Assembly (NCBI GenBank): GCA_006384855.1
Contig: VCJN01002855.1
Span: forward strand, 1 to 64,000
Direction: 5' to 3'
Length of the DNA: 64,000 bases
Source of the DNA: Tetraselmis striata
Taxonomy: Eukaryota; Chlorophyta; Chlorodendrophyceae; Chlorodendrales; Chlorodendraceae
Part shown: piece after piece, positions 4,273-59,004 of the stretch
Layout: every line of letters begins with the position of its first letter
Numbering within the stretch: position 1 is the first letter of the stretch
Notes under the pieces: generated by a model
The model's input: only the letters and a program-made list of their open reading frames with translations
Told to the model about the DNA's origin: nothing
The model's database searches: none
Program-made: the position numbers and the translations under genes

Positions 4273-6223
<1,951 letters not shown>

Positions 6224-6889
6224 CCTGTGGTGCCAGCCCGCACCAGGTGCCTGGGAGTGCCACAGCAGGGCTACGGCCCTGAAGAGCAGAGGCGCCGCAT
6301 CCGCACATGTCATAGTATACCAGGGAACACTCTTGCGGCACTCCCGAAGGCTCCGCTGGGACGCCTTAGCTATCTGCGCCGCCTCATCCGAATATGATTT
6401 AACGAACGCCCTGCTACAGTTTGAGGATGCCCCTGGCTGCCGTGCCAGTATATGGCTGCGATGCTTAATGACTACGGCATGTGTTGTGGCTGCATGGGTG
6501 ATCCACTCATCCAGCGGGATTCTTTGGCATTCCTCGACGCATGTAGCTGCGTCTCGGAGATGTTTTTTTGCGACGGTCCTAACCTAATTCATGAGGTAGT
6601 GGCGCGGAGGGAACTGGCACAAACTGTGTGTGTGTCACTGCCGTAAACAATGCACACTGGTCCAGTCATCACTGCTGCATTACTTTGTGGTATCAGAGAC
6701 TCATCAGAGCTGCTGTAGGCAATAACACCACGGTGCACGAAAAAAACAGCGCCCTCGTTGGGCACACCGGCTGTCGGTATTCTGTCACATCGATGCCGAT
6801 TTGCTGGCAGGCGGAGCGCCATGTGTTGCGCTGCGTCAACTTACTTGGTGGTTCTGGTGCTGTTGCTACTGGTGCTGGTGGCTGCTGGT
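6224..6889. other. UBC13 3' flank, nothing recognised
   Basis: This should contain the 3' untranslated region of the E2 gene. The first TGTAA-type signal I find is distant (7005-7009). No other gene is supported. Confidence 0.4.
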
Positions 6890-7035
6890 GCGGCCGTAGC
6901 TTGAGCTGTAATTACACTATATGTGTTTCCTGTAGTGGTTAGAGATAGCATGCCCTGAAAACAACTCAGTCTCGGCGGCCGAGAGCAGCATACTAGCAAG
7001 TTGCTGTAAACAATTTCCATTTCCTGTACCACTGC
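6890..7035 (+). repeat. Dispersed repeat family A, copy 1
   Basis: A roughly 130-base segment containing GGCCGTAGCTTGAGC, a TGTAATTACACTATATGTG-like stretch and AGCATGCCCTGAAAACAACT recurs at about 30975-31110 and 31735-31890 in the same orientation with substitutions and small indels. No internal ORF or clear tRNA-type B box is visible. It could be a SINE or the end of a larger element. Confidence 0.55.
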
Positions 7036-7514
7036 AGCAGCACATACAGCTAGAAGCGGTTGGGGAAAAAGGGAAACCCCGTAAACTTGGTTAGAACTTT
7101 ACATAGATGTGGAGTATGGGTTTGCCAGGTAGAAACGAAGGGAGAGAGCGGTACATTGACGGAGAAGGTATAGCACCAAGCTAGGAAGGGGGTGCAGGCC
7201 ACCATGCGGCATCCTCCCCGGTGGGCGTATTTCCTTCAGCGCGTCTTGACGGCGCAATGCCAGGCGGGACGACTAGGTTATATGTCACAGCGTTGGACCC
7301 TAACAGTAGGCGAGCGGGGTGACAGCAACGGCGTACCGTACCGATGTACAATTCAAAGCCTGCGCGCGCAACTGCGCGCTGAAGCAACGCCCTCGTCATA
7401 TTATGTAAGGATTATAGTTACATGAGCTAGCTGCAAAAGGCGATCAGGAAACCACCCGAATAGGCAATAGGAAACGTCCACTACATCAGTTGCGAGGTGG
7501 ACCCGTATTAATCC

Positions 7515-9005
7515 TTTATTACATTAGGGCGTTCACAAATGCGCACTACAAACGGAACTAACAACAACTATGAAAGGTTTCCAGCAAAAGAGAGACATAC
7601 TGTAAGCCTGAAACCAAGGTCGAGCATGAGGCCAGGGAGCCAAGAACCAAGGAGGAGCCAAGGGAACCACGAAGTCGCTTGGCTGCCAGGAACCAAAGGG
7701 ACCACCGCCCCGGGGTAGGCTATCAGCCGCGGCGAGGACGCTTGCAGCCAATGACCCGGGTCATAGCAACACAGGCCGACGAGCGACGCGACGCAGGCGC
7801 AGGAGCACCATCACGTGCCGCACGCGCGGCCGCGACCCCGCCAAGAACGTTGTCTGCATGTGCCATGTTGATGAGCAAGGAGAAACGGCGGCGCCACGCA
7901 AACAAGAGCCGGCCGTTTTTTTGGCCAGTGTGTGTGTGGCTAGCTTTCGCGAGCTCCACCAAGAAGGCCTCAGCGTGCGGGGCCAGCGAGCCAAACTCGG
8001 AAACGGCGAAAGGAACAAAGCGAAGCATGCCGGCGGCGTTTCGGACACCCTCGTCATACTTCTGGATTTTGTGGCGCTCTGCAGCCCGCAAAGCAGTCGT
8101 TGGATCCGAGCTTGACACGCCGAGGATAGGGGCAATGGTGGTATCGACAGCAACCGTGTTCCCGCGGATACCGCCATACCCAAAAAGCCCAACATCGGCC
8201 GGCCGACCGTCGCAGCCCTTCGGAAGAGAAACAAGCACCGACGGGTCCGTGAGGATCTGGACACCCACCCCCAGCGCGGACTTCACGTCGTGGCAAATGT
8301 CGGAAAGGCCATGTGCCGCCTACTCGTGTGCGGCGTGATTGGAGTCTCCCCCAGAGCAACGTGCCACGTGATCAGCGTACGCGACCGCCCAAGTTGAAGG
8401 AGTGAAATCCACGCCAGCATCCTCAAAACGGGCCATCATACCTTGTACCGAGAAGGAGCAAAAAGCACAAGGGCGTGGCTCGCCAAGTAAGTAAGGGAGA
8501 GGACAGGAGCCGCCGGAAGGCCGAATGGGTGGCAAGCGGCAACGCGGAACATGGAATCGTAGTACTCAGGGGAACGCTCAGGGACTTCACTAAGGCGACC
8601 CTCACTTGGAGGATCAGTCACCAGGAACGCTGTCGCAGCGCCTAAGAGGCGGCCTCGGAAGCGGTTGCTGTCAGGGCCGCTTGTAGGCATACGCGCAGCA
8701 AGCTTTGCGAAACGGACCGTGTGAATGCGGTGGCTCAGGGTTTCCTATACTTATTTCCGCATGGAGTGCAAGGGGAAGTCCGAGTAATGCGGGATAGCTT
8801 GGAGGTCGGCCGCCGAGCGCATTGCAGACGCCGGCTCAGCCCCGGCGGCCGAGCAGCCGGCACGGGCAACGTGGGAGCGCTTGGAGGGGAGCAACTTTAG
8901 GGCAGAGGCCAACGGCCCCGCTAGATCCTCGAGCACCGCGTCTCCACACTCGTCAACGACACGGGTATGAGCAGCGCGAAGCTCGACAGCCCACATTAAT
9001 CCTTA
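7515..9005 (-). mobile_element. 5'-truncated retroelement with RLE-like 3' end, copy 1
   Basis: This segment matches 44896-46115 at high nucleotide identity in inverted orientation. Both copies end in the same 3' sequence GCCCTAATGTAATAAA. The copy here extends about 260 bases further 5' than the other. A shared exact 3' end with different 5' ends is what target-primed reverse transcription produces. The TGTAA within the end sequence fits a green-algal polyadenylation signal. No target duplication could be assigned. Confidence 0.75.
7723..8996 (-). pseudogene. Retroelement ORF C-terminus, restriction-like endonuclease-type domain
   Basis: Reading leftwards, pieces in different frames give: an upstream segment (8996-8751); a segment ending GAATAFLVTDPPSEGRL (about 8630); a zinc-binding-like region with CAFC, then DHVARC and H; and from 8286 a long frame with GRPADVGLFGY, TVAVDTTIAP, AERHKIQKYDEG and FVPFAVSEFGSLAPHAEAF, ending KRPRRG. 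This order (C-x2-C, H-x4-C, then D...K-x-x-K-Y and F-x-P-F-x-x-x-x-x-G) is that of the PD-(D/E)XK-like C-terminal domain of non-LTR-type reverse transcriptase ORFs in plants and protists. Frame breaks near 8740, 8500 and 8300 mark it as inactive. The reverse transcriptase itself is missing. Confidence 0.6.
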
Positions 9006-26835: not shown

Positions 26836-29650
26836 CCAGTAGTCGCCACTACTGCCCCCTCCCCCCCTCAGAGAGCGCCCTCGCGCGGCTTCCTACACCT
26901 ATCCACATAAATCTGTGTTTCATGCATTAAATCAACATGTCCAATTGCTGCCCATACGCAAAAAACGCCGGGGCTGAGTGCACGGATGTTCCAAACGACT
27001 AGGGCACTCAGGAAAATCACCGCTTTGAAATCGCGCTAGACTTGGCCGTGCCACACAGCAACCGTTGCCACCTACTGTTTCGATCATGCAAATGCAGCTC
27101 GGGGGGCGACATCTCCATAAATTCACGAGTTGTTATTCATTTCCCATCCATGCCCATGGATGGGCATGGCCTACGCTTGCCGCTTTACTCAAACCATTCC
27201 AGTGACTCTTGTTGAAAAAATGCTGCACTATGTGTGTTGGGCATTGATATCGTGTCATTTAGGGTGTGCGTCATCCCTAAATGACCTCCTCATCACCGGC
27301 ATCCCCACGAATGCCAAAGACACCTGCATTTTACGCTGCTATTCAATGATCTGGTCGCTAAAGACCAAGCACTTGAAAAGGCGGCGTGCACGCGTACTAT
27401 CGACAACGTGATCCGACTGCTCTGCACCGACAAAACCGGAGAATGGGTGTTACATGCGGACGCTCGCGTCGTCCACCCCCCTTCCCCCCCTAAGCGGCAG
27501 CTGCTGACGCTACAGCCTCCCCCTCCCACTAGTACCGGCTCCGTGATCGTCCGCCTCGCTCGCCGTGAGTCCGCGGTCGACATTGTCTTGCGCGCACAAT
27601 GGACCGGCTCACGCAGCGTCATCCCAATAATTATTCCCCGTTGATGCGTTGTCCGCTTGCTAGGCGCCCCTCGTCTGGACGATGTGGAGCGCCCCGTCCA
27701 CCATGTATGGATTCGCTCCGCATCCCTGCGTGGCTAGACGAAGACCGACTTGTGGCAGCACCTTGCAAAGGGGTTGCTGCTCGCCTACGACGCTGATCCC
27801 GCCGCAGCCGGCGCCGAACCGGCGCAGCCGCCGCCTCTAGCCGCCAAGGAACTGCCACGAGCCGGCCTGCGCGCGTGGGCAGACGACGCCGCAGACGAGA
27901 CAACTACATAAGCGATCACCCGGCCCCACACCAGCACACTGTTTGAGCCGCTGGAACTCCGTGAGGTGTGGAAGCCCCGCCGCATCTCCGACGGACCCCG
28001 GCTTGAACTACTGGATGTGGAGCCCGTGCGCCTATTGCAAGACGTACGCATGGGCGCAATCTTGTTCCTCCCCTACGACTCTTATTTGACCCCGCGCCAA
28101 GCTGCAATCCACGTTGTGGTTGAGCACCCGGACGACGGCACAAACCCTCTTGCCCACCCGCGAGCCGGCGTTCTTCAACATGCCTTGGCGAAACAATTCT
28201 TCCGGAATGCGTTGACTGCTCGCACGACATATACGGGACCGCCCTTGGCGGCTTCCCGCACCTCGTGCTGCCAGATGTCGCCGGGCTAGCGGAGGCGATC
28301 GCCGCCACCTTCGGTCAGCGCGTCAACGGGACGTCCGAGATCGGGCACGCCGAATGGATGACCCGCACCTTCCGGGAGGCATAAGTTAAGCCATACGAGT
28401 ACGACTCGGAGCCCCGCTTGCCACCCGTCGGCGAGGCGATGAAGCAGCATATTAGGGCGATGTCGCTCGGCAAGAAGGACGCTGAGTTCATCGACACCTT
28501 GCGCCTGATGACCCTCTCGCTCAATTGCCCCCTTGCCCTCCCCCGATCGATCCGGCTGCGCACAGTGACCATGTACTTGACCCCGGTGGCCGACGACCCG
28601 ACGACCCGTCGACCCTCGATATCCACCCGTTCAGGCTCACCGTCATGGAGGCAAGCGAGATAACCGACCGCAGCAGCCAACGCGCGTAGTCTTAAACGCC
28701 GGGCGCCCCGCTCGCCTCCCTCGCCCTCCGCGCGGAACGGACAACTCTCTACACCCTAAATCCTTCGCCCCGCCGAGCGCCACCACAGCCATATCGGGGG
28801 CACACGCGAGAGCGGCAATTTGGAGCAATGGCGCAAGACCGTGTATTCGGCTGGCCGCCCCAAACTCGTAGCCGCCGGCAAAGCGAACGCGCAGCCGAAG
28901 GAGCGGGCAGCGGTGGAGCGTCAACCGGTGACACTTCCAGTCGAGCGGCTAGCGAACCGGCGCAGCCAGCCCCAAAAGGAGCCCCCAGAATAGCCCTCAC
29001 ACTACCCGCCCCCGGCCAACGCCCCACCCGCCGCGACAGCCCCCAAAGACGCATCACTGGGCGTGGTCGGCGAAGACCCTCGATCTGCCCGGTTTCGAGC
29101 GCGTCGTCATCTAGGTGCAGACGGCGGTGGCAGCCCTTGATTAGCATCATCCAGCAACCGGTGCAAATCCGGCGGCACCCCAACGCCTACAACAACAGTC
29201 GCCGCCCAGGGCTGCGCCGCGGTGCCACGCGACTTCGAAAGCTCTTACTCGACTGCGAGGAGTCCGGCATGGAGGTGGACGGCACACGAGCTTGCATGCG
29301 AGGGACCGACAGCACCCCGACATGGGCGCCCTTGAGCTGGAGTCGCACGCCCCCCTGTCCAAACTGATTCTCCGCGACGGCACGGCCGAGCGTCATCTCA
29401 TCCAGTGGAGCGAGAGACGACGGACGCAGCCGAAATATCCGAGCTGTCATCGCCGGCCAGCAATCCAGCCCTCGAGTAGGCGAGTCCCGCTTGGCCAAAC
29501 TCTCAGCTGAGGCCGACCACCACCCCAACCCCCGCGCCGGCGATCTTGCTGGATCAGCCGCCGGCTTGCTAGAAGCCAGCACCAGCCAAGCCCGCCGGCA
29601 AGGCGGCCAAGACCAAGCAACAGCGCAGCTGTAGCCGCGCCGCTCCCATG
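26836..29650 (+). pseudogene. Degenerate coding-like region, probable retroelement relic
   Basis: From about 27400 to 29600 the plus strand has GC-rich, coding-like composition in several short frames broken by stops. Legible pieces include LLDVEPVRLLQDVRMGAILF (about 28010), DIYGTALGGFPHLVLPDVAG then TSEIGHAEWMTRTFREA with an in-frame TAA at 28382, and directly after it LPPVGEAMKQHIRAMSLGKK and KDAEFIDTLRLMTLS. A later piece reads SKLILRDGTAERHLIQWSER. No domain is recognised. It may be a gag or other structural ORF of a retroelement. Earlier sequence (26836-27400) contains a hairpin at 27253-27286. Confidence 0.35.
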
Positions 29651-30536
29651 GGCAAGTCAGAAACAGCCCGCCGACGGGCGCCCGCCACTAGGCAGCGGCC
29701 ACTGGGAGGTGAGGATCTTGAGTAGTGCGGCAGACTTGGCGGCACCCACATGCACGCAGTGGGCGCTGGTAACTTCTAAGATCCGTAACATGCAGAGTGC
29801 AGTAGGGGCTCAGCGAGGTGATCGGTTGTCACGATCCTTGGATCTCGGGACGACCGGGGAGCCCTACGGGGGGCTTTTCATACAATGCTCGCAGTTCCGG
29901 TAGAGCATGTTGGCGCCGCCGGACAGCACCCATGTACGAAGGGCTGTTAGAAATACTTCCTGCACGTCCCCGGCCTAGTGTCGGCCTCTCTGAGATCCGT
30001 CTATGGATGGGAGGGGGGCTGTGCGACTACTTGCGAGGGATGTTCGGAAATACACATGTGTTCTCGTACCTCGGTACGGCCCGCGACCGACCTGCAAAAA
30101 ATCTGGCCTACCTCCCTACCGGTATGGGTTCCACTTGCTACTCCGAGCTTCCTTGCGTTATACGACGGAGTGTTCGGCGGCGCCCTGCGGGCGACCCGTT
30201 TGGAACACACGGGGAACCCTCAGCCGTTCCATGAGAACGAGTAAGGGTGGCGAGCGGCGCGAGGAGGCAGAGGCTTGGCAGTAAAAGGTGGGGAGGGCGT
30301 TTGGGAACGGAGAGGCCGGGCATGGTGGCTACTCGGGGGCCAAGCGCAAAGAGCCGGAGTGCTCTTAGGGAGTCGCGGCCATGCAGCGGGAGGAGGCCGT
30401 TGGAGGCCATCAGCCATGTTTCACATTGGACGGGCGGCTACAACGGCGAAGCGCGGTGTGGCGACAAGCGGCGCGAAGTCGAGAAGGACCGGCTGCCTGC
30501 CACGGAGCAACGTGTGGACACTTGGACGAGTTGGAG

Positions 30537-30574
30537 GGGGGGGGGGGGGGGGGGCAGGGGGGGGGGGGGGGGGG
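30537..30574. repeat. G homopolymer pair
   Basis: Two G runs separated by CA, about 38 bases in total, in intergenic sequence. Surrounding Gly-rich frames are artefacts. Confidence 0.9.
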
Positions 30575-30974
30575 TAGTGCCCGCTTGTCCCCTCCAACCC
30601 CCCTTGGCGCCCCTACCGAGGACAGCGCTCAGACGGGCGAGATAGCGGCAGCAGCGGCGGACCGCGGCCGAGGCCAGCGCACCGCCATAGCCGGTGCGGC
30701 GGGGTGATTGCTTTGGCGCATCGACCTGCGGGATATTTTCAGCTATGGCGGAAAGTGGAGCCAAGACGCGCGGCGACCGCAACACTGAGATGTAGTCGTG
30801 CCGGTGAATTACTAATAATGTGAAGGAAACCCGGGGGTGGGGCGAGTACGGCATTCATCACCCATGTTATTTTGCCAATTACTAGCGATAGTCGCTCTTG
30901 CTTTGCGACTGCTTGTAATTATCCAAAAATGACAAAGCTACTGATCACGAGATAGTAGGAGGCGGGGCTAGAAA

Positions 30975-31110
30975 CGAAAGAGGCCGGCCGTACCTTGCGC
31001 TATGATAGTGTAATTGCACTATGTGTTTTCCATCGAGGCTAAAGACATCATGCCCTAAAAACGACTCACTTTGAACAACAAAGAGCGGCAGATTATCACG
31101 TTGCAACCAA
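30975..31110 (+). repeat. Dispersed repeat family A, copy 2
   Basis: It shares GGCCGGCCGTACCTTGCGC, a TGTAATTGCACTATGTG stretch and CATCATGCCCTAAAAACGAC with copies at 6890 and 31735, in the same orientation. Confidence 0.55.
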
Positions 31111-31734
31111 ACTCAATTTCACTTTCCCGCCAGCGTAGCCGCAGCCAATAACTACGGCGCAGGTAGCGGACGTCGCTAGCGAGGAAAGCAAATGGGCGAC
31201 AACCAACGAGGAGGAGGAGCCGCAGTTCATGGGCAGGACGACCACCCACATGTACGGGGAGATCGGGAGGACGTCCCAGGACCCTTATTGTATCCGAACC
31301 GGCGCGCCGCCTCTTATTAGTATAGCCAAGAATCACTGACGTTTCTAACCGCAACCCCCGTATATACTGCATATTGTGTAATTTCCAAACTACATGCCCG
31401 TCATAGATAGTGTACTTTCCGATCTGCGAGAATCGCATAAGCGCCGGTACTCAATACGCCGTGATGTGACAGGTAACGCGCAGAAAAATTCAGAGCAACA
31501 AGGCGCGGTAGCCCTCGCCAAACCCCACTGGCCGGCTCAGCGGTGTATAAAACACTGAACATCTCATGGCTATTCCGATTAGCTCCCCTCCCGCATCACC
31601 TTAGTAGCCGTAAGCGGGATGCCTCCGGCTGCCTTTGCTTGCCTGGCGAGCTCTTGATGAGATGGGTCCGACTTAGGTAGAGACGACAACAAAGGGCGCC
31701 GCTGCCCTAGCTATAGCCCATTGGACCGAGGAGG

Positions 31735-39479: not shown

Positions 39480-42018
39480 TCATAGGTTACGCCGTAGGCA
39501 ACGGCGCCCAGATCAACACCTGGTGGCTTAGCTAGAGGTGCACGCCTACGTGTACGCCGTTGCGCCCATCACGGCAGCGTCATCATCACAATGATGTGCT
39601 GCCGGTAAACTCGTTCTCGGTACTTCTCCGCCCCCTCATGCCGACCTCGCCGGGTGCGGATGACCGACCTATCTATAGGTGGAGCGCCTCGAGAACTAGC
39701 GCCTTGCAAGCTCTGCAAAGAATGCGGGTGCGTACGCGCCACGTATGGCGGGGCGTTATCAGCTGAGGGGCCACCTGCTGTGTAACTTCGTCCGAGTGAG
39801 CGTACGCATCGCGATCGTGCGTTACGCGGCGGTACGAGGTTGCTTTAGCTGCCCCTCAGAAATAGGTTATTTACGGCGTAGATAACGGCGCCCGGGTTAA
39901 TACCCGCTGGTCCATCTAGGTGTACGCCGGCATGTACTCGTATCACGGCGTCATCAGCATGGTGCTCAACTGCCGGTAGGCTAGTTATCGGTATCTGTCC
40001 GACACCCGTGCCGATATATCCGTCGGTGCATAAGACCGACACATATATAGATGGGGTGCAACGAGAACTAGCGCCTCGGAGGTCCTACGAGGCACGCCAC
40101 CGTGTACGCCCCGCATATGACGGGGCATCATCAACAGAGGGGCCATCTTCCAGTTGACTTCATCCGAGTGAGAAAGCATACTCAACGACTTGCGCGTCGC
40201 GACGGTACAGGTAATCAGCAGGGTATATAGCCTTCGTCCGAGCGAGCGTACGGCCATACATGTACGCATCGCGATCGTAGTGCGTGGCGCCACGGTACCC
40301 GTACGAGGTTACTTCGGCTGCTGCCCCGCCTACTCAGAGCTTTAGGTTAATCCTTTTGCCGTAGACAACGGCGCCCGAAACACGGACACCGAGGTGTACG
40401 CCGGCGTATACTACGCAGTCGCACCTATCGCAGCGTCGCCAGCAACGTGATCCGCTACCGGGATGGTAGATCTCGGTACGTCTCAGGCCCCGTGCCGATA
40501 TATCCGCCGGTGCTTAAGACCGATACATAGGTGGGATGAAACGATACCTAGCACCGCCTTGCAGGTCCTGCGAGGCACGCCGGCGTGCACGCGCTGCGTA
40601 CGACGGGGCGTCATCAGCATAGTGATCATCTACCGGATAACTTGGTCAGAGTGAGCCGACCATTACCTGATGTGTGCGTCGCGATCGTGCTCCGTGTCGC
40701 GCGACGGCATCATTTGTCCAAGGTACTCAGTAGGGCAAACTCCGTCCGAGCGAGCGTACAGCCGTACACATCGCGATTTCGCGTGGTGCGACGGTACGAA
40801 GTTAATCGGCTCCTCTCATCAGAGATTCAAGTTGCGCCGAAGGCAACGGCGCCCGAAATACAAAAAACACCGGTTGGTCCAGCTAGGTGTCTGCCGGGGT
40901 GTACGCAGTTGCGGTCATCGCGGCGTCATCATCTGCGTGATCCACCGCTGCTACTGGTAAGCTACATGTAGTTCTTGGTCCGTCTTGGGCCCCCGTGCCG
41001 ATATCCACGGGTGCGTATCCTACCATACCAATTATAGAGGTGAGTCTTTTTGTCTGTCTGTCTATATGTCTGTATGTCTGTCTGTCGCCGAACTTCGGAA
41101 CGGTTTCGCATAGATTATTAGATAGATAAAAATGTATCCGTTTTAGATTCCGTCATAATTCCGCGCAGGCCAAAATAACCGCAGCGCTTTACTGTTGACT
41201 ACATGTACCGGTACGGGTACCGGCCGCCCGGCCGCAGCCGGCCGGGCCGGTCGTCGCCGATCGTCATGTGTAAGGGGCGGGCATGGCGCGAAGCGCCGAG
41301 CCCGCCGTGTGGACCGGAGCCGGACGCGGAACGCCGTCGTTCGTCCGTCGCCGGACGCCGGACGACCGTCGCCCGTCCGCCCCGCCGCCTCGCCGCCGGG
41401 CCTTCCCGGGTTACCGCAAAAAGCGGTGCACCCTTTGGCACACACTTGCCGCACACACTACTTGGATGCATCCACAACCTATTAAAGCACAGCGCTAGTC
41501 GCCCCACAATAACCCTATGATTTACTAGTCATTAACGGACGCCGGGCCTTGGGTCGGTGGGTCGGCGGACGCGGGGTTGTACAATGTATCAACTACTAAT
41601 ACGATTCATCCTTGCGGCTCTCTAAATACCACACTCCTGCAACGGGTCTACTTGTAACCGATCTATTGCCGGCGCGCAACGGCGGGAACTAGCGCCTCAC
41701 AAGTCATGCAGGGCACGCCCACGTGTACGACGCGTACGATGAGGGGTCATCTGTCGGCATGTAACATTGTGCGTTGTGTGAACATATAGGCACTACGCAT
41801 CGCGATCGTGTGTCATGCGACAAGATGTACGAGGTACTTCGGATCCCACTCAGGGATGATTGGGGTTACACCGAAGACAACGGCGCCCATGTTAACGCAG
41901 CTGTTCCAACTAGGTGCACGCCATCGTGTACCGGTACCTGTACGCAGTTGCGTTGCTCATCTAGGCGTTGTCATTAGCGTGACCCGCTGTAGTACCAGTA
42001 CGAGTACACCCCCCCCCC

Positions 42019-42061
<43 letters not shown>

Positions 42062-42300
42062 GGGTCACATTGCTGGAGCGTAGCGAAGAGTAGCGCCTCG
42101 CGGGTCATGCAAGGCACGCCGGCGTGCGCCGCGCACGATGGGGCGTCATTAGCAGCGCGACCCGCTGCCAGTCACTATTCGTCCGTGTAGCCGTACGCAT
42201 CGGTCGTGCTCTGCGCGATGGTACTACCGATACATGTACGATGTTAATACGGTTGTACACCGTTCGCTCGTCCATACCGCCGATACCAGTAGCGCTCGGT
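39480..42300. repeat. Degenerate tandem-repeat array, about 380-480 base period
   Basis: Landmark ACGGCGCCC recurs at 39501, 39885, 40368, 40846 and 41880. Each is followed at similar distances by a TAGGTGYACGCC-like block, a GGCGTCATC block, GTGCCGATATATCC-like sequence and a second half unit containing GCGCCTCG, GAGGCACGCC and ACGGGGCGTCATCAGC. The expected unit near 41.3 kb is replaced by a GC-rich stretch (41190-41460). No ORF is conserved among the units, so this is non-coding satellite-like DNA or a very old tandem duplication. A (CA)n run lies at 42021-42058. Confidence 0.7.
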
Positions 42301-42650
42301 CGAGGTGCACCGCACTGACGAAGGGGCTTGGCTCGGCTGCCGGCGCGGTGTTGGTCGATGTCAGGCTGCGGCGATCAACGCATCTCCCGTGGCTGGAGTA
42401 GGCACAAACGGTGGCTCGCGGACTACTTGTGTAACGCTTTGCAGGCGGCGCAACAAAATCAATCGCGGTGTGCCCGTCCACTCCCACACTGTGTATCAGG
42501 TGGGGTTCCAAGGTGAGTGTCTCCATCAGCCAATGTCGAGCAACTCACGCTGCGAGCCATGGTGCAAACGGGCAGGGATGATGGAAGCAAGAGCGCGTGT
42601 CGGCGAGTCGAGAGTCTTGACGATATCTGAGCGAGTATAAACCTGAATTA

Positions 42651-50448: not shown

Positions 50449-52812
50449 TCACGGGCTGCGTTCGATGTGGTACACTGCGTTGCGGTTTGCACCACCATTG
50501 TACGCAAAGGTCTGCCCAAACGCACTCGCCTCCCACTGCTCCTCCCCAATGCACTCTTCATCCGGAGCCTCCACAAACGGGTCCAGCCCCAGCGTGCCCT
50601 TGCTGAGCAGGAAGCAGCCGGTAAGGCCGTCCTCAGCGTAGCCCTGTGGGTACTGCAAGCCAAAGGTGCCGCCCGTCTCCAGGGCCATCAGAGCGCAATG
50701 CTCCATCGACACGCCGCGCACTTGCAGCTCAAATGCCCGGTCCCCAGTGTCCACGTAGCAGCCCACATAGCCCAGCTGGCGGCTTGACGCAGCTGCAGGT
50801 GCTGAAGACACCAGCCACAGGCCGTCAGGCCGACTGGTCGTCCAGATCCCCACACCCGACAAGGCAATACATCCACCCTGGGATGCTGTAGCCCATAGAC
50901 ACGCAGCGCGACGCAGAGCAGCTCACCAAAGGGTGGAGTGGTGAAGTTGTAGACGGCGTTGCGCCAGGCATCGCCGTTCATCTGAAACTCCTGCCCGTGG
51001 TACACCGGACCCCACGGCTCACCCTGGCACTCATCATCCGGCCGCCGCAGCTCCTCTGTCAGGTTGGCAGTGGGCAGGAACCAGCACTCCGCCTTCTGGC
51101 CGCTCTCGCCTTGGGGGTACTGCAGCCCGAACTTGGCAGCGCCGACGCCACGCGCCAAGAGGGCACAGTCCTCGATGGTGGCGGCTGTCTTGAGCCGGAA
51201 GTTGCGCAGGTCAACACTGTCTGCGAAGCAGCCCTCGTAGGCAATGGGGATCCTGCATTGGCGCAGTGACCGCCGCACAGGGGTGTTGCATTGAGTGCTT
51301 GCGGATGAGGGAGTGGGGTATTGGTGCAGCGCAAGTGCTGCACGATTGCACGATGCCTCAGCCCTGCCACGTAGGTGGTGATGCACAAGTCGCCTCGAGC
51401 ACATGCTGACAACACAGCTACAGGATGAATGGCATGATGGCACCTATCCAGACCTGCAAGCGATGCACGCTCCCGTAGTGTCGTGGGCCACGCTGACCGA
51501 GGAAACAGGAGAGAAGGAGAGAGAGAATAAGGGAGAGGGGCTGCATGGGGGTTGCGTACTGGCACGTCTTGTCCATGCAATCTGCCCCCGCCTCGCACTG
51601 TGTGTCGGCCTCGCACTCAGCGCCGATGGGCCTCCCTTCCCGCCTGAAAACACAGCAGCATGTCCAACGGCCGAGCCAAGCCGGACATCAGTCGGACGCT
51701 TCTTGGAGCCCGTGGGCGATGACACAACATCGAGCGGGATGGATGCAGGGGTAGCAGACTCGCATAGCAGCTGTGACTGTGTGTGTGCAAGTGAGGCCTG
51801 GGCAATGGGTGCGGGTTCGCACATTTCAATACGATACACTGCGTTGCGGTTTGCACCACCATTGTACGCAAAGGTCTGCCCAAACGCACTCGCCTCCCAC
51901 TGCTCCTCCCCAATGCACTCTTCATCCGGAGCCTCCACAAACGGGTCCAGCCCCAGCGTGCCCTTGCTGAGCAGGAAGCAGCCGGTAAGGCCGTCCTCAG
52001 CGTAGCCCTGCGGGTACTGCAAGCCAAATGTGCCGCCCGTCTCCAGGGCCATCAGAGCGCAATGCTCCATCGACACGCCGCGCACTTGCACCTCAAATGC
52101 CCGGTCCCCAGTGTCCACGTAGCAGCCCACATAGCCCAGCTGGCGGCTTGACGCAGCTGCAGGTGCTGGACACCAGCCACAGGCCGTCAGGCCGACTGGT
52201 CGTCCAGATCCCCACACCCGACAACGCAATACATCCACCCCGGGGTACTGTAGCCCATGCATGGGCAGCACGGCGCGAAGCAGCTCACCAAAGGGTGGAG
52301 TGGTGAAGTTGTAGACGGCGTTGCGCCAGCCGTCGCCGTTCATCTGAAACTCCTGCCCGTGGTACACCGGACCCCACGGCTCACCCTGGCACTCATCATC
52401 CGGCCGCCGCAGCTCCTCTGTCAGGTTGGCAGTGGGCAGGAACCAGCACTCCGCCTTCTGGCCGCTCTCGCCTTGGGGGTACTGCAGCCCGAACTTGGCA
52501 GCGCCGACGCCACGCGCCAAGAGGGCACAGTCCTCGATGGTGGCGGCCGTCTTGAGCCGGAAGTTGCGCAGGTCAGCACTGTCTGCGAAGCAGCCCTCGT
52601 AGGCAATGGGGATCCTGCGTTGGCGCAGCAACCGCCGCACAGGGGTGTTGCCGTGAGTGCTTGTGACACCACTGGGGCAACAAATTGCCGTATTGTTGTA
52701 AGCATGGGCAGTTGGGGGGGGGGGGGGGGGGGGGTTCCACCTGCAGGCTTTGTTCATGCACTCTGCTCCAGCTTGGCACTGGCAGCTAGCTTGGCAGGCA
52801 GAGCCAACAAGC
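50449..52812 (-). repeat. Tandem duplicated cassette: Cys-rich module, WSC-A, WSC-B
   Basis: Exons 9-11 and 12-14 of the TIR gene are near-identical in the WSC-like parts, offset 1362-1364 bases, with equal exon lengths (326 bases for both WSC-A exons) and phases. WSC-A begins IPIAYEGCFADS, WSC-B begins LGYVGCYVDTGDRAFE, and both end in a NAVY-type strand as WSC domains do. The Cys-rich modules (CQCQAGAECMNKAC versus TQCEAGADCMDKTC) have diverged more. The last WSC-B ends NAVYHIERSP and a stop. Confidence 0.85.
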
Positions 52813-55800
52813 CTGCCCCCATCACGAGGTCTGTACCACAGGGTTGTCGCCGGTCAGCAGAGCAACGGCAAGCATACGTAAGACGCCACCTGCAGCTGAC
52901 AGTTGGATGGGAAATTAACAAGTGCGGCCATGATGGTGACATCGCGGCGGCAGCGGCAATGAACATGGGCGCGGTAAGGGGGCGCACGTGTCGCTGTCAC
53001 AGTCGATTGCCTCCTTGCCCGCGGTGCTTGGCGTGAAGAGAATAGGAAGAGGCTCAAACACTGGGGCGGGGAGCTCCGGTTTGTCATCGGGCGGCGCGAC
53101 ATCCAGCACCTCTAGCGGGACGCCAAGCTGCAGGAGGTCCGCCTCACGGAGAACGTCTTGATCCAGCATCAGGCCTCGCAGCAGACGCTGCATGGCGCTG
53201 GGTGACGGGAGGTATGACACCGCGGCAACGGCGTGCCAGGGACCTTCGACAGCGGTGGCGCAGAGGGCTACAGATTCACCATCCGGCGTCCAGGCGATCG
53301 AGCGGATGGTGCCCGAATCATCCAGGACCGATTGGGCAGTAATCCATTTGGCATAGGGGAGCGCCAAGCCGCGCTTATTGAGCCGCCACACCGCTAGCCT
53401 GCGCAAGTCACTGACCGCAACAATGGTGCGGCCGTCCGGCGAAAAGCTGACCACCCGGCCAAGCGTGCCGCTGCTGAAATCGCGAAGTTCCTGATGGGGG
53501 ACGGAGTACACCGGGAGGAGGGGGTGGGTCGGGACTTTGTCTTCAAGTGAACACCTTTAAGTGAACAACAAATTGTCGACTAATGTCATGGAGGTGAGAT
53601 GTTTTCTAGATGCGCAAGGACTACCCTGGCATTCTTTCGCATTCCGGTGGGGGGGGGGGGGGGGGGGGGGGCTCTGAATACCTCGTACTAATGCGAGATC
53701 ATTCATCTAATAAAAAACGTACCAAGGGGAATCGCCAATCACTATAGTTGTTGCGCAAGCTGCAGCAAAAGGGGTGGATTGTGCCGGGTTTGTGCCCTGC
53801 CAAAATAGCCGGGGCTGTCGTAGGGTCTGAAGCTGCTGCCCCAAACCTCCGGTGCCAGGGTGCCAGTGGCCGTTGTACAGATTGGCGCACGATGATTCCA
53901 GAAACGTCCGAAGCACCGGAGCGCGGAATGGATTTCACCAGGTCGGCTAGGGCTGACGCTGCTAAAGGGTTGGGGGTGTCACAGGCGAGTTGTCGTTCCC
54001 TACCCGCAATCGATACAGCGAATAAGCTATATGGCGGGAGTCTGAATAGTAGAATTAAATAGCAACCCCAATACAGGTATGAGGCATGAGGCATGAGGCA
54101 GAGGAACAGGCGAAAGGCAGAGCCCTGTTCCCCTACTTTTCGTTTTTGGTAAGAGGTTGAGGAATTCAGCACGTAGATGACAATTGCACGTCATGCTGCC
54201 CACACGTACCTGCAGCCTCTCCAGCGAGCCATCCCCAGACACCTGCCAGGTTTGCACCGTATTGTCAAGGGTGACCGTGGCCAGAAGCCTACCATCGCCG
54301 GAGAACGACGCGTCTGTCACTGCCTCCGCGGCAAGATCGTACACGGCAGATGGAGTGGAGCTGGCGGCGGTGCCATTGGGTGACACCCGCCAGACAGCAA
54401 GCATGCCGCCGTAGTGGCACGACACAAGAATGCTGCCGTTGGGAGCATACTGAAGAGCCCGAACAGCGCCAAGGCCTGGTTGCAAAACCTGCAACAATCA
54501 CAGCATTGGCAATTCACAATTTATAGTCGATGGAAACACAGCTAACATCACAATGGCCAGATGAGATACTAGTCACAGCGGTGCGAGAGGGTGCGCCATT
54601 GCAGGAGGGATGTTTGACGACGCTTGCTTCATGTCATTGGAAGTAGGGCATGCCGCCAGCGCGAGAGAATGCAGGGGTGCATGGCAAGTCATAGGGAATT
54701 GGCACTTGAATCTCAGTCAAGTGGAGCAAGATGGGGGGGGGGGGTGCGAGGAGAGGTCACGTTCATCAACACAGAATCGAGAGACGCATCGGAATAGGGG
54801 CCAACATCATGCATATAATCAGATGGACACAGACAGCAAAGCTGTAACACCCGCGGCAGCTGATGGCATGGATACCTGTGGGTTTCCATTGGCGAGCTGA
54901 CCGCTCACGCCGGCTGCCCATATCTTCAGGCTGTGGTCATTGCTGCCAGCAGCCAGCGTGGCACCCAGAGGGTGCCATGACACGGAAGTCACCCGATCGC
55001 TGAAGCCGCCCAGCACCACCACGGCGGATGGCTCGGTTCCATCAACGGGCCACAGGCGCACCACCGCATCGACGCCTCCGGTGGCAAGCTTCCAGGCCCC
55101 GCCTGGTGGCGCCCAATCCACAGCCGTCGCACCTCCACTGTGCGTGACGTTGCTGGATGTTGTGGGGAGCTCGAGGTGCCCGTGCTTTGGGACCCAAAAG
55201 GCGGTCTGCCCACTGGCCAACGCCATCGCGAGCGTATTGCCGTCCGGTGACCACTGGCAGGAGTGTGCCTCCCCAGGGTGCTTCCCATCCAGAGAGACAC
55301 TGACATCATACAGCATCTCTAGTGACACTGGTTCCTGACGCAGCAGCGGTAGGTGGCTGCTGCGGCGAACAGACCAGTGCCGAGGGTCAGTACCGGCCGC
55401 CCACACATAGAGGTTGCCGCTGATGGTGCCCATTGCCAGCTGCGGCAGCACAGCCGAGGGCATCCAAGCCAGGGACGTCACCATCTCGGTGCCATCCTTG
55501 TCAGAGCGAAAAACCATCGATGGAATAAACGGCGCGTCGCCATTGGTGACATCGGCACTGGGATCGGCCTCGAAGATGACCACGCGCCTGTCGGAGCCAC
55601 CCCTCGCGAGGAAGCGCCCATCAGCTGAGAACGCGAGGGTTGTGATCTCGCTAGCGGTGTCACGCGCCAGCTTCACAGCTGCTGGCTGGCTGTCCGCTTC
55701 CCCCAGTCTCTCGCGGTCAATGGCCCAGGTGCGGATGCTGGACCGGGAGCTGCGAAGACGCACTCCAGTGACTTCATCCTTGATTTCTTCTAGAGAGTCC

Positions 55801-58800
55801 TCCGCGGCGGCGGCCAGCAGGCTTGGACTCCATGCGAGCGCCTGGACGGGCCAACTATCAACCAGCAGCAGGCCCGCAGGCGCCAGCACCGATGGGTCCG
55901 AGTCGAGGCGCCACAGGAAGATGTGGCCGCTGCTGTCGGCGGTGGCGAGTGCCGTGGTGAGGTTGGCGCCGGGAGCGAACGCAAGGGCACGCACCCCGGT
56001 CGTGTGCTGCCCGAGAGTAACGGAGCCCACTGGCCCACCACCGGGCCAGAGCATCACGTTGGTGTCCAGCGATCCAGAGGCCAGCCAATCGCCGGCAGGG
56101 GACCACTGCAGGCAGGTCACATCGTCGCTGTGGCCCTCCAGCGGCTCACTGGTCCCCGCGGCTGGGCCTTGCGCGTCGACTACAAAGATGACCTGCCCGC
56201 TGGCGATGGCCAGTAGGGATGAGTTGGGGGAGTGCGCGAGGGCGTGCACCCGCAGGGAGGCGGGCACCTGGCGCGGCTGCAAAGGCTCAAAGGCAAGCTC
56301 GGCATCGGTGTGGAATTCGCGTACTGATGAGTCCCAACCGCCTGTCATTAGTTGAGAGCCATCGGGAGACCAGCTGATGCTCGACACACGGCCCTCATGC
56401 ACCGGCAGGATCTGGTGGGTGGGCAGAGGAGTCAGCTTAGTTCATGATGCAGAGGCAGCGGCTCCTCGTGTGGCCAGACAGTGAGCCTTTGGACACATAG
56501 TCTAGACAATCACTTGTGCAGTTCCCGTAGATATTGTGTGCATGATAATCATGTCCGTCAAGCGGTTGATGAACAACCATTGACAGGGTTCAAGGCATGT
56601 GCTGCTGAGGGGCAAAGGGCTGTCAGGCGCACCCCACGGTGAATCCACTGAGCAGTCATCAGATTTTCCAGCTTGGCCGTGGACTGAGCCTCAACTTCCT
56701 CCAGACCTGGGCCAGTCAGGGAGTCCACCACTAACTCCATGATCTTGAGGTCTGACCGAGCAGTCATACTTGTGCTGGTGCCAAGCAGCGGCATGACCGC
56801 CCAGGCAAGCGCCTTGCGGCCCATGGTGATGGCGAGCTGCAAGGTTGCCTCGGCAAAGTTACGCTGCTGATCAGCGAAGGCTGCACTTTCCACAGCCAAC
56901 GCCTCATTTGCCAATGCCAAAGCCTCATTTTTATTGGCAAGGGTGGCGTTGGCATTGGCAACAACTGCCATGTAGCCGGCAGCAATGGCGCCAGCGATGA
57001 TGAGCAGCAGCAGCAGTATTGCGGTGCCGCTCAGGAGGCGATGCCGGATGGAGTTCAACTTCTTTGAGGCGTCAATGTAAGCGGCCTGTAGGTCGGATGG
57101 TGCAGGCTTCTGGGAATACTTGACTGCCTGCGTCTTCCAGCCGTCCCATATTGATATGTCCTCGCCGTTGAGCAGTAGCGCGCTGGACGCCTGGCGACCC
57201 TTCCTATCCCAACGTAAGGCGCGCTCTGCCAGCTCGGCATACTCCTGTGCCGGCAAGGACATGAGGGGCAGTGCGCATCAGCGTTGTGACTGCAACAGTC
57301 GCATTGCATTGCATGTAAGCATAGCATGCAAAGAAAGGAGGTGGGTGGGGGGACCTTAAGGTAGGGGAGGTCAGTCGTGACAGACTTCATCACGTTGGCC
57401 AACATCCCCGCAACATTTCCACCCTGGAATCTCTCTGCACGGCCGTCGCAGAGATTGATGCCCGCAACGAAGTCGCAGATCTCCTTCAACTTATTCTTGG
57501 TGAAGGCTGAGCCGTCAGGCATTTTTGATCCCTGCGAAATGAATATGCACAGGCATATGAGGAGGCGGTGCCATTGCATTTGGGTGGCAAAAAAGACGCC
57601 CTATTCATGATGCCGCATATTTATGTAGATACAATATGGCATTATATAATATACTAAAATATTTTGTGCATCATCGGCACATTGTGGCTTTGGCGAATCA
57701 AGCGCCCAAGGGGGCTGGGACGCACACCTCATGATCACAGAACTCTTGGTGCGAGTCCCATAGAAGCTCCGCAGCTTTTGGGTTGGTTATCAGCTTCCAC
57801 GCCGTCTGTATAGCAGTGCCAAAAAGTGTACAGTAACATCAGTATCAGTTCAGTAGTTGTGTCAGTAGCGGTTCTGACAAAACAACTGCAACGTGGCAAT
57901 GCGCGAGGCCAGCCAGACTGTAAATCTGGAGGAAGAGACACAAATTGCCGTTGACTCACTCATACCCGGTGTCTTTGCAATGTGAAGTAGTTCACATAAA
58001 TGGATTCATGTACACCAGCCCGGATAACACAACCACAGGATACGCTAGTACCTTTAATCTGTATTGCTGCTATCAGATGTTAGCGACTACTAAAAATCGT
58101 CAAATTACAATCATTGGTTATGTGGGTACAGCCCCAGCATGCAAGGGCTTCACGAAAGATAATCATATGATAATCCTTTCTCGCATGTATGTGACAAAAT
58201 GCATTTGTTACCACTCTTTCATCATCTTATCCTTATTGAGTCATATGAAAACCTAGAACGGGTCCACGGCCTGCATGTCTAGTACTCAAGCGCAGATCAG
58301 TCACCCAGGTCGGGCTTTGGTATTCGAGGCGTTTTGCGTAATTCGTACGAGTACCCGGGTGATGGGGGTGCAGTGTTAATTAAGGTATATATATGGGTGG
58401 TTTTGGGTATATTTAGCTATTATGTTTTTGAGCATTCGAGCAGCTGTGATTCGACTATTTCCTGCTTTGCGGCGTTTCACTTGGGCAGCCAACAGTGATT
58501 CCAGGCAATAGAAGATGGCGTGGGCGGTCACGTTATCAAGGATGATCGGAACCACCGGCTTCGACTCCACCATCGCACAGTACAGCTCCTGTGGCGCACA
58601 GCAGACTAACAATTTAGAGTCCATGTAGTGACACCATTCACGCCGATGTCCAATTCATGCTGTGATAGGGCACGAGAGCAACGGGGCCTGCCGGCATTTG
58701 GCGTCCGATTTGAAATCTACCTCCATGCAGTTGAAGCTACCGAGGTAAGCGGCGTCAATCAAACCGACGAACTTGGCGGTGCTGCGGATTGCGTCGTGAA

Positions 58801-59004
58801 TCTCTTTCCTCCACGCCACAGGTCCCCGGGCGGCGAGATCCAGAAAGTCGCTCCAATAGGTCAATCCTCGTTCGCCAGACTGAAAATCGTCCGGCAGCCA
58901 GGCGTGCGACCAGGGGATGAGGGTGGGGGCAGCAGGGCAGTGCACGACTCATCAGTCCTCAGTGTTGCGTTGGCATGAAAAGTGGCCGAAATGCAGACGT
59001 CATA
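50449..59004 (-). CDS. TIR-TM-WD40 receptor-like protein with C-terminal WSC-like cassettes (5' incomplete)
   Basis: Fourteen exons: 59004-58731, 58588-58532, 57805-57728, 57531-57355, 57244-56633, 56411-54876, 54488-54210, 53490-52988, 52812-52741, 52614-52289, 52156-51823, 51643-51560, 51252-50927, 50792-50449. Exons 2-14 keep one open frame of 1575 residues. Exons 1-2: TIR domain, with WRKEIHDAIRSTAKFVGLID, YLGSFNCMEELYCAM (catalytic Glu in C-x-x-E-L) and KPVVPIILDN. Exons 3-4: linker with INLCDGRAERF. Exon 5: ALRWDRKGRQASSALLLNGED, then one helix (SGTAILLLLLIIAGAIAAG) after basic KKLNSIRHR, then an Ala/Asn-rich coiled stretch. Exons 6-8: about 14 WD40 repeats. Exons 9-14: two cassettes of a Cys-rich module and two WSC-like domains. 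Positive-inside predicts cytosolic TIR and external WD40/WSC. Exon 1 has one frame break near 58900-58950, and the first exon is not found. Confidence 0.8.
54876..56411 (-). other. Long WD40 exon of the TIR gene
   Basis: One 1536-base exon encodes about ten WD40 repeats, for example GRVSSISWSPDGSQLMTGGW, DDVTCLQWSPAGDWLASGSL, ITTLAFSADGRFLARGGSD and RVTSVSWHPLGATLAAGSND. Four more are in 54488-54210 and 53490-52988 (VRALQYAPNGSILV, VTDASFSGDGRLLA, RVVSFSPDGRTIVA, IRSIAWTPDGESVA). The total of about 14 suits two seven-bladed propellers. Confidence 0.85.

Follow-up and report, generated by a model that had tools for sequence, protein, structure and literature searches.

A candidate type II membrane receptor of Tetraselmis striata with a bacterial-type TIR-WD40 core and WSC-like modules

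The stretch of DNA considered here (the window; 64,000 nucleotides) comprises positions 1 to 64,000 of contig VCJN01002855.1 of the green alga Tetraselmis striata, termed C2301:1-64000 in the 224 Mb assembly of 2903 contigs. Its minus strand carries a gene that probably encodes a membrane receptor with an N-terminal TIR domain. Open reading frames and comparison with paralogs define 14 exons from 58879 to 50449, in which every intron runs from GT to AG and a single frame extends over 1634 codons to a TGA at 50449. An earlier reading of the sequence (the original prediction) had placed exons 2 to 14 in one open frame on one strand, and this part of its model is borne out. The exon 1 that it began at 59004 (YDVCISATFHANAT) is rejected: it scored 12.3 against the betaA/alphaA exon of the paralogs, below the best scores of three shuffles (21, 17.7 and 15.7).

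In a tblastx comparison of the upstream regions of two paralogous loci, C1252 and C175, the matches listed include one long conserved exon of 111 residues (64% identical). When the whole assembly was searched with this exon, a minus-strand match appeared at C2301:64720-64950 (42% identity, E = 9e-8). The reading frame there opens with an ATG at 64998 and reaches a GTGAGC donor after 64714; the donor is in phase 0 and compatible with exon 2. Contig positions 64998-64714, which lie shortly beyond the window and are separated from exon 2 by a 5.8 kb intron, are the likely first TIR exon. With this exon added, the model has 15 exons, GT-AG introns and an open frame of 1729 residues, in the order TIR, linker, one transmembrane helix, WD40 propellers and then, twice over, an EB-like module followed by two WSC units. 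The features are as follows.

64714-64998 of the contig, minus strand: exon 1, outside the window; probable start codon and TIR betaA/alphaA, from the match to the paralog exon
58880-64713 of the contig (58880..64000 within the window), minus strand: intron 1, from the exon 1 match
58721..58879, minus strand: exon 2; TIR betaB to the start of alphaC (SGERGLTYWSDFLDL..FNCME), with the TIR_2 match; 59/61% identical to C1252/C175
58532..58588, minus strand: exon 3; TIR alphaC with the conserved Glu (E149) and betaD; Glu column invariant in alignments A2 and A6
57728..57805, minus strand: exon 4; TIR to linker; exon and phase kept in C1252 and C175
57355..57531, minus strand: exon 5; TIR end and linker start; 35/37% identical to the paralogs
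56633..57244, minus strand: exon 6; linker (ERALRW..ALLLNGEDI..YIDASKK), predicted transmembrane helix (protein residues 328-346) and start of a coiled region, from a linker hidden Markov model (HMM; E = 4e-14) and hydropathy
54876..56411, minus strand: exon 7; WD40 propellers (Pfam WD40 E = 4e-43 on the surrounding open frame)
54210..54488, minus strand: exon 8; WD40 (Pfam WD40 E = 7e-9 on the surrounding open frame)
52988..53490, minus strand: exon 9; last WD40 blades and family C-terminal tail, donor in phase 2, from the paralogs; similar tail in C2263 and C613 by eye
52741..52812, minus strand: exon 10; Cys-rich EB-like module 1; 57/48% identical to the C1252/C175 counterpart, Pfam EB only E = 0.11
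52289..52614, minus strand: exon 11; WSC-like domain a, copy 1, from alignment A4 and paralog comparison
51823..52165, minus strand: exon 12; WSC-like domain b, copy 1, from an AlphaFold model (pLDDT 86.5) with structure matches to Wsc1 and Kremen
51560..51643, minus strand: exon 13; Cys-rich EB-like module 2, from the splice model
50927..51252, minus strand: exon 14; WSC-like domain a, copy 2; 98% identical to copy 1
50449..50801, minus strand: exon 15; WSC-like domain b, copy 2, and stop codon, from the splice model and alignment

The 14 exons that lie inside the window hold most of a TIR domain, as originally predicted. Exon 2 alone scores 17.8 bits against TIR_2, below the cut-off of 28; addition of exon 1 raises the window protein to 28.9 bits, and the C1252 protein and that of the intronless paralog C613 score 40.2 and 46.6, all over the cut-off. 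The match in the window protein covers residues 98-168 and starts after betaA. A model of the C613 TIR-linker region (mean pLDDT 71.7) gave 19 matches in the PDB at E <= 0.001, of which 17 are TIR proteins or SPARTA TIR complexes (RPS4, RUN1, RPP1, Roq1 and AbTir among them) and two are unrelated enzymes. TIR proteins are also found by sequence with a profile of C613 and 11 bacterial sequences (alignment A6), the best being the CRISPR-associated TIR protein Cat1 (E = 9e-12). The window TIR-linker as a single sequence returned only one, unrelated, match from the PDB (E = 0.48) and no match in PADLOC; two bacterial relatives matched the Thoeris ThsB, SAVED-TIR and other TIR models of PADLOC over their TIR part (best E = 4e-10).

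The Glu in the motif NC(M/L)xEL (E149) is invariant in a four-row alignment (A2), and the corresponding column is invariant in all 12 sequences of A6 (one algal and 11 bacterial). We take this Glu in alphaC to be the catalytic Glu of NADase TIRs, and the structure of RUN1 E100A with NAD is among the PDB matches to the C613 model. Because a Toll-like receptor (TLR) has a Glu at the equivalent position in printed alignments, the residue allows catalysis without proving it.

WD40 repeats are recognized over the whole protein (Pfam E = 2e-48) in at least two propeller-length stretches, so that the predicted WD40 region is confirmed; the earlier figure of about 14 repeats is an estimate. The WSC units of the window have no Pfam domain over the cut-off. 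PF01822 matched one of 13 aligned members (E = 0.0019) and not the window unit, and a WSC profile run against the PDB gave nothing useful. An AlphaFold model of unit b, built with 13 sequences, has a mean pLDDT of 86.5. Foldseek returned 59 matches for it at E <= 10; among the best 50 of these 59, ranks 1 to 3 are Wsc1 (7pz2, two chains, E = 4.5e-3 and 1.2e-2) and Kremen (5fwv, E = 1.3e-2), with a probability of 1.00 and query TM-scores of 0.58-0.62, and the fourth has a probability of 0.38. As judged from this model, the window units would have the WSC fold. The two WSC-like cassettes foreseen in the original prediction are therefore present as an EB/WSC/WSC arrangement repeated twice, with a structure match to Wsc1 and Kremen and without a Pfam WSC match. 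In sum, profile searches returned WD40 and, with exon 1, TIR_2, and left WSC and EB below the Pfam cut-offs.

Between the two cassettes (52614-50449), protein identity is 98% over the WSC a and b exons but only 52% over the EB exons, and the intron that separates exons a and b is 87% identical. This pattern suggests a recent duplication or gene conversion of part of the cassette. WSC-like sequences also occur elsewhere in the genome. Two loci on C1921 (L035 and L038) and one on C2600 (L045) have WSC-like repeats split by long PT-rich (PTPAPT)n spacers and are candidate coat proteins; two further contigs carry pairs of WSC-like exon arrays on opposite strands (C757:8205-10757, minus, with 28827-31408, plus; C426:8245-10670, minus, with 39802-42407, plus).

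The part of the protein before the EB module has bacterial relatives. A tblastn search of 72,556 plasmid records with the window TIR-linker gave a single match (E = 1e-5), on a plasmid of Tolypothrix sp. PCC 7712; the gene (WP_264267989.1, annotated 'TIR domain-containing protein') encodes a TIR, the linker, a helix and 15 Pfam WD40 stretches. It lies at 4468-8210 of NZ_CP063798.1, a plasmid typed as mobilizable, and adjoins a gene for an adenylate/guanylate cyclase domain protein; plasmid and neighbour are a possible route and a possible partner, respectively. The first 244 Tolypothrix residues, searched against genomes of 84,980 bacterial and archaeal species, a scan that covered close relatives of this protein, matched 13 loci in Nostoc, Tolypothrix, Phormidium and other cyanobacteria, in Chloroflexi/Anaerolineae and in one Acidobacteriales metagenome-assembled genome. 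One of these (L077, a short 32% match) was left out, and the remaining 12 were examined, giving 13 bacterial proteins with that of Tolypothrix. All 12 loci have a TIR, the linker and one hydrophobic stretch over 1.7, in lengths of 370-1224 residues; two run off the contig, and L065 stops after 370 residues. Pfam WD40 is over the cut-off in 13 of 13 bacterial proteins (a single stretch only in L065) and TIR_2, among the families listed, in at least 10 of 13. In one Nostoc protein (sp. UCD121; L066, 93-2171), TPR repeats stand behind a short WD40 array. Searches of the plasmids with the C613 protein (tblastn), and of viral contigs with the TIR-linker and the WSC cassette, gave nothing useful.

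An HMM of the 13 bacterial linkers matched the window protein (E = 4e-14) and those of C1252 (4e-14), C613 (9e-10) and C1973 (2e-9), with E values calculated for a database of 20,000; none of 1000 shuffled decoys did better than 1.3. Because the bacterial linker HMM matches the algal proteins, the TIR-linker-transmembrane-WD40 core of the algal gene is, on sequence similarity, homologous to the bacterial architecture and not new. Bacterial and algal proteins alike have a TIR with the conserved Glu, a linker of the kind HTRLLxRALEW..LLRGxDL..YIxxSR, one transmembrane helix and WD40 (13 of 13 bacterial proteins). They differ in that the bacterial genes are single open frames in which no EB or WSC was seen, and the algal TIR-linker rows are only 25-27% identical to that of Tolypothrix. 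The window gene is a variant with an added part and not a plain family member, because EB-WSC cassettes stand behind its propellers.

The family is large in this genome. A search of the assembly with the linker/transmembrane exon gave 30 rows, which correspond to at least 29 loci after the merging of two rows of one C2495 gene and may include haplotype pairs on separate contigs. A wholly new class of TIR protein, as originally suggested, is not what we find, given a bacterial core and 29 loci of the genome that carry the linker. Three of the 29 loci (C2301, C1252 and C175) lie on contigs with WSC-like matches and 26 on contigs without. In C1252 and C175 the WSC-like match shares the strand of the linker match and lies 3.4-3.8 kb downstream from it, and the order TIR-transmembrane-WD40-EB-WSC is kept with one WSC each; the window linker/transmembrane region is 37% identical to theirs. 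The order proposed in the original prediction thus recurs in three loci of the genome. Seven members without WSC were examined at length, in addition to C613. The two whose ends were seen, C2263 and C613, finish in a tail of the form LLRxxxYGxLxExDLxxLGL; in the window protein, EB-WSC comes after a similar tail (..AMQRLLRGLMLDQDVLREADLLQLGV..). Because the family tail precedes EB-WSC in the window protein (an alignment made by eye), the EB-WSC ectodomain was most likely appended behind the old C-terminus in one clade.

Two members differ in build from the rest. C613 (L058, minus strand, 6806-3645) is intronless and encodes 1054 residues with TIR, linker, transmembrane helix and divergent propellers; the other members examined have introns. 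C2495 (L051, C2495:1-9900, and C2495:18280-18507) holds a copy of the 5' part of the window gene, 85-94% identical over the matched exons, with exon 1 about 9.4 kb upstream of exon 2. Introns in the gene and its paralogs and 63 matches to the chlorophyll a/b-binding family in the assembly rule out a bacterial contaminant, and the latter identify the assembly as that of a photosynthetic eukaryote. The RbcS N-terminal family had no match in the assembly and none in any control genome, which makes this negative uninformative, and a search for telomere-like repeats gave nothing useful.

In the window protein, only one stretch has a 19-residue mean hydropathy over 1.5 (residues 328-346), in agreement with the single helix predicted from the start. 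Lys and Arg in the 20 residues before and after the helix number 4 and 1 in the window protein and 6 and 2 in C1252, and are more frequent before than after it in 15 of 17 proteins (four algal, 13 bacterial); two Nostoc proteins have one fewer before the helix than after it. N-glycosylation sequons before and after the helix number 0 and 10 in the window protein (p = 0.12) and 0 and 5 in C1252, counted over the WD40 part up to a frameshift and the WSC unit (p = 0.025 jointly with the window protein). Cys residues are dense only in the EB-WSC part, at 5.0 per 100, compared with 2.2 for the region that precedes the helix and 0.6 for the propellers. Because charge bias, sequons and Cys distribution all fit an N-inside, C-outside orientation, the protein is likely a type II single-pass receptor, with the TIR inside, the propellers and WSC units outside, and no cleaved signal peptide; the earlier placement of TIR and WSC on opposite sides of the membrane gains support from the same three distributions. 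The outside position of WSC is also supported by the protein of C2600 (L045), since its WSC-like domain follows a signal-peptide-like start (MVRAVALLALCCLFLGGVVAS..; judged by eye) and PT-rich spacers.

We consider it rather probable, from these comparisons, that the locus is one gene for a single-pass type II membrane receptor, in which a bacterial-type TIR-linker-transmembrane-WD40 core is followed by two EB-WSC-WSC cassettes. Several points weigh against this reading. The gene model is drawn from genomic sequence. The TIR fold was modelled on the paralog C613 and not on the window protein, at the modest pLDDT given above; the WSC units are below the Pfam cut-off, and their best structure match (E = 4.5e-3) leaves none at or under 0.001; the sequon test on the window protein by itself is weak (p = 0.12). 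The linker exon of C2495 is interrupted by an in-frame stop, and similarity over WD40 is confined to the first part in this copy; C1252 and C175 have one apparent single-base frameshift each as assembled (at about 6600 of L049 and about 3160 of L050), from either assembly error or decay. On account of these frameshifts and the C2495 stop, the window gene is the one member of the WSC clade that the assembly shows intact.

The TIR and WSC parts could belong to two neighbouring genes, a TIR-transmembrane-WD40 gene ending near 52917 and a separate EB-WSC gene behind it. Such a split would suit the 26 loci on contigs without a WSC-like match and the stops that the unspliced last propeller frame meets before EB in the window (52917) and in C1252 (7007 of L049), where one Met also precedes EB in the EB frame. 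We nevertheless hold it to be very improbable. In all three diverged WSC loci, order and strand are the same, the last propeller exon has a phase-2 donor and the EB exon a phase-2 acceptor, and only 175 (window), 148 and 136 bases lie between them. The C175 propeller frame stays open past the whole EB exon (6774-6851) to a first stop at 6894, so a separate first gene in C175 would lack a stop before EB. Neither C175 nor the window has a Met in the frame upstream of EB, and the sequence behind the Met of C1252 is not signal-peptide-like. By a rough estimate from 60 WSC-like matches, the probability that a cluster of WSC units lies by chance on the same strand in the 5 kb downstream is below 1e-3 per locus. 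Because two diverged paralogs keep the order and the phase-2 intron at the junction, TIR and WSC most likely form one gene; the break between 52988 and 52812 that the original prediction had contemplated falls on the splice sites of the model, kept in phase 2 in C1252 and C175. A decaying copy without present function is also quite unlikely. C2495 is a broken copy, about 90% identical, and C1252 and C175 bear their frameshifts, but the frame of the window gene runs uninterrupted through 1729 codons, frameshifts of one base can stem from errors of assembly, and the ratio of nonsynonymous to synonymous rates (Ka/Ks) between C1252 and C175 is below 1 in every module. It is 0.20 for TIR (245 codons, bootstrap 0.13-0.27), 0.23 for linker and helix (0.14-0.37), 0.41 for the main WD40 exon (0.33-0.49), 0.22 and 0.35 for two parts of the last WD40 exon, 0.20 for EB (25 codons, 0.03-0.74, the highest upper limit) and 0.36 for WSC (0.20-0.63).

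For the function of a single type II receptor, we envisage that EB-WSC was appended behind the old C-terminal tail in one clade of the 29-locus family, that the TIR faces the cytosol, and that propellers and WSC units face the outside or a lumen. At the plasma membrane, the presumed location, the target of the WSC units may be a glycan or a wall constituent, either microbial or from the coat of the alga itself, and a further ligand may be held or sensed by the propellers. Ligand binding would cluster the receptors and allow the TIRs to assemble, and the assembled TIRs would cleave NAD+, so that a signal is made or the cell is killed; we infer these steps of binding, clustering, cleavage and signalling from the domains. 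A sensor of wall or theca integrity, in which the WSC units attach to the coat of the alga itself, like those of yeast Wsc1, and the TIR signals mechanical stress or damage, is an alternative to an immune receptor that we think rather unlikely. The best structure match is the Wsc1 mechanosensor domain, and the WSC-like proteins with PT-rich spacers could be coat proteins; however, 29 loci with propellers that change faster than the TIR (Ka/Ks 0.41 versus 0.20) fit recognition of variable ligands at least equally well. It is likewise doubtful that TIR is a scaffold that recruits TIR or adaptor proteins, as in animal TLRs, instead of an enzyme. The Glu that a TLR shares in alignments is, as noted, no proof of catalysis, but its invariance throughout A6, where 11 of 12 sequences are bacterial, speaks for an enzyme.

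Cell-surface TIR receptors are known from animals, and plants use intracellular nucleotide-binding leucine-rich-repeat receptors with a TIR (TIR-NLRs). Like animal TLRs, the window protein would be single-pass, with TIR on one side of the membrane and a ligand-type ectodomain on the other. The TLR layout itself, an N-terminal ectodomain of leucine-rich repeats (LRRs) and a C-terminal cytosolic TIR, is not found here: TIR is N-terminal to the helix, in an inverted, type II order, with WD40 and WSC in place of LRRs and a bacterial-type linker. With fungal Wsc1-type sensors and Kremen the protein would share the WSC fold, by structure match, although its sequence is under the Pfam WSC cut-off; we know of no TIR or WD40 in these proteins.

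Other algal and eukaryotic TIR proteins have been described. TIR-NBARC-WD40 proteins occur in the red alga Chondrus crispus, and TIR-only proteins in unicellular green algae (PMC9806590, PMC7145615). According to the accessible text of these papers, the Chondrus proteins likewise combine TIR and WD40 in an alga, but around a central NB-ARC. Residues 1-456 of the window protein contain no NB-ARC and join directly to WD40, and an exon-wise search of the assembly, which split domains could escape, gave no NB-ARC match, with six of 14 control genomes positive; the absence of NB-ARC from the protein and from this genome search rules out a plant-type TIR-NLR. The same assembly has 29 TIR-linker loci despite the lack of NB-ARC matches. 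The accessible parts of other surveys report TIR-NBD-WD40 architectures (NBD, nucleotide-binding domain) in plants and bacteria (PMC9153377), 16 chlorophytan TIR domains (PMC7075850) and, in a TIR atlas, SARM1-like sequences in green algae (PMC13142454). Dictyostelium TirBCD are also eukaryotic TIR proteins of bacterial origin, and TirC is an NADase with a predicted transmembrane helix; they differ in being related to TIR-STING, and the accessible text makes no mention of WD40 or WSC (PMC13142454).

The full order of TIR, transmembrane helix, WD40, EB and WSC was not found described in the literature searched, subscription papers lying outside that search. The earlier statement that no receptor with this order has been described therefore holds for the full order within that literature, and not for the TIR-transmembrane-WD40 core, which is already bacterial. 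Relative to the material searched, and with one eukaryotic genome compared, what appears new is a eukaryotic family of this kind and the addition of an EB-WSC ectodomain in one clade. We tentatively propose, as a possibility of somewhat less weight than the gene model itself, that an alga without detectable NB-ARC genes may use expanded type II single-pass TIR receptors, derived from bacterial TIR-transmembrane-WD40 proteins, for surveillance at its surface, and that one clade may have gained a glycan-binding WSC ectodomain by fusion. If so, these proteins would be a further lineage of TIR cell-surface receptors that does TLR-like work with inverted topology and an independent origin. They would exemplify eukaryotic surface receptors that arose independently from bacterial TIR proteins, and the gene in the window would offer an open gene with which to study the activation of TIR across a membrane.

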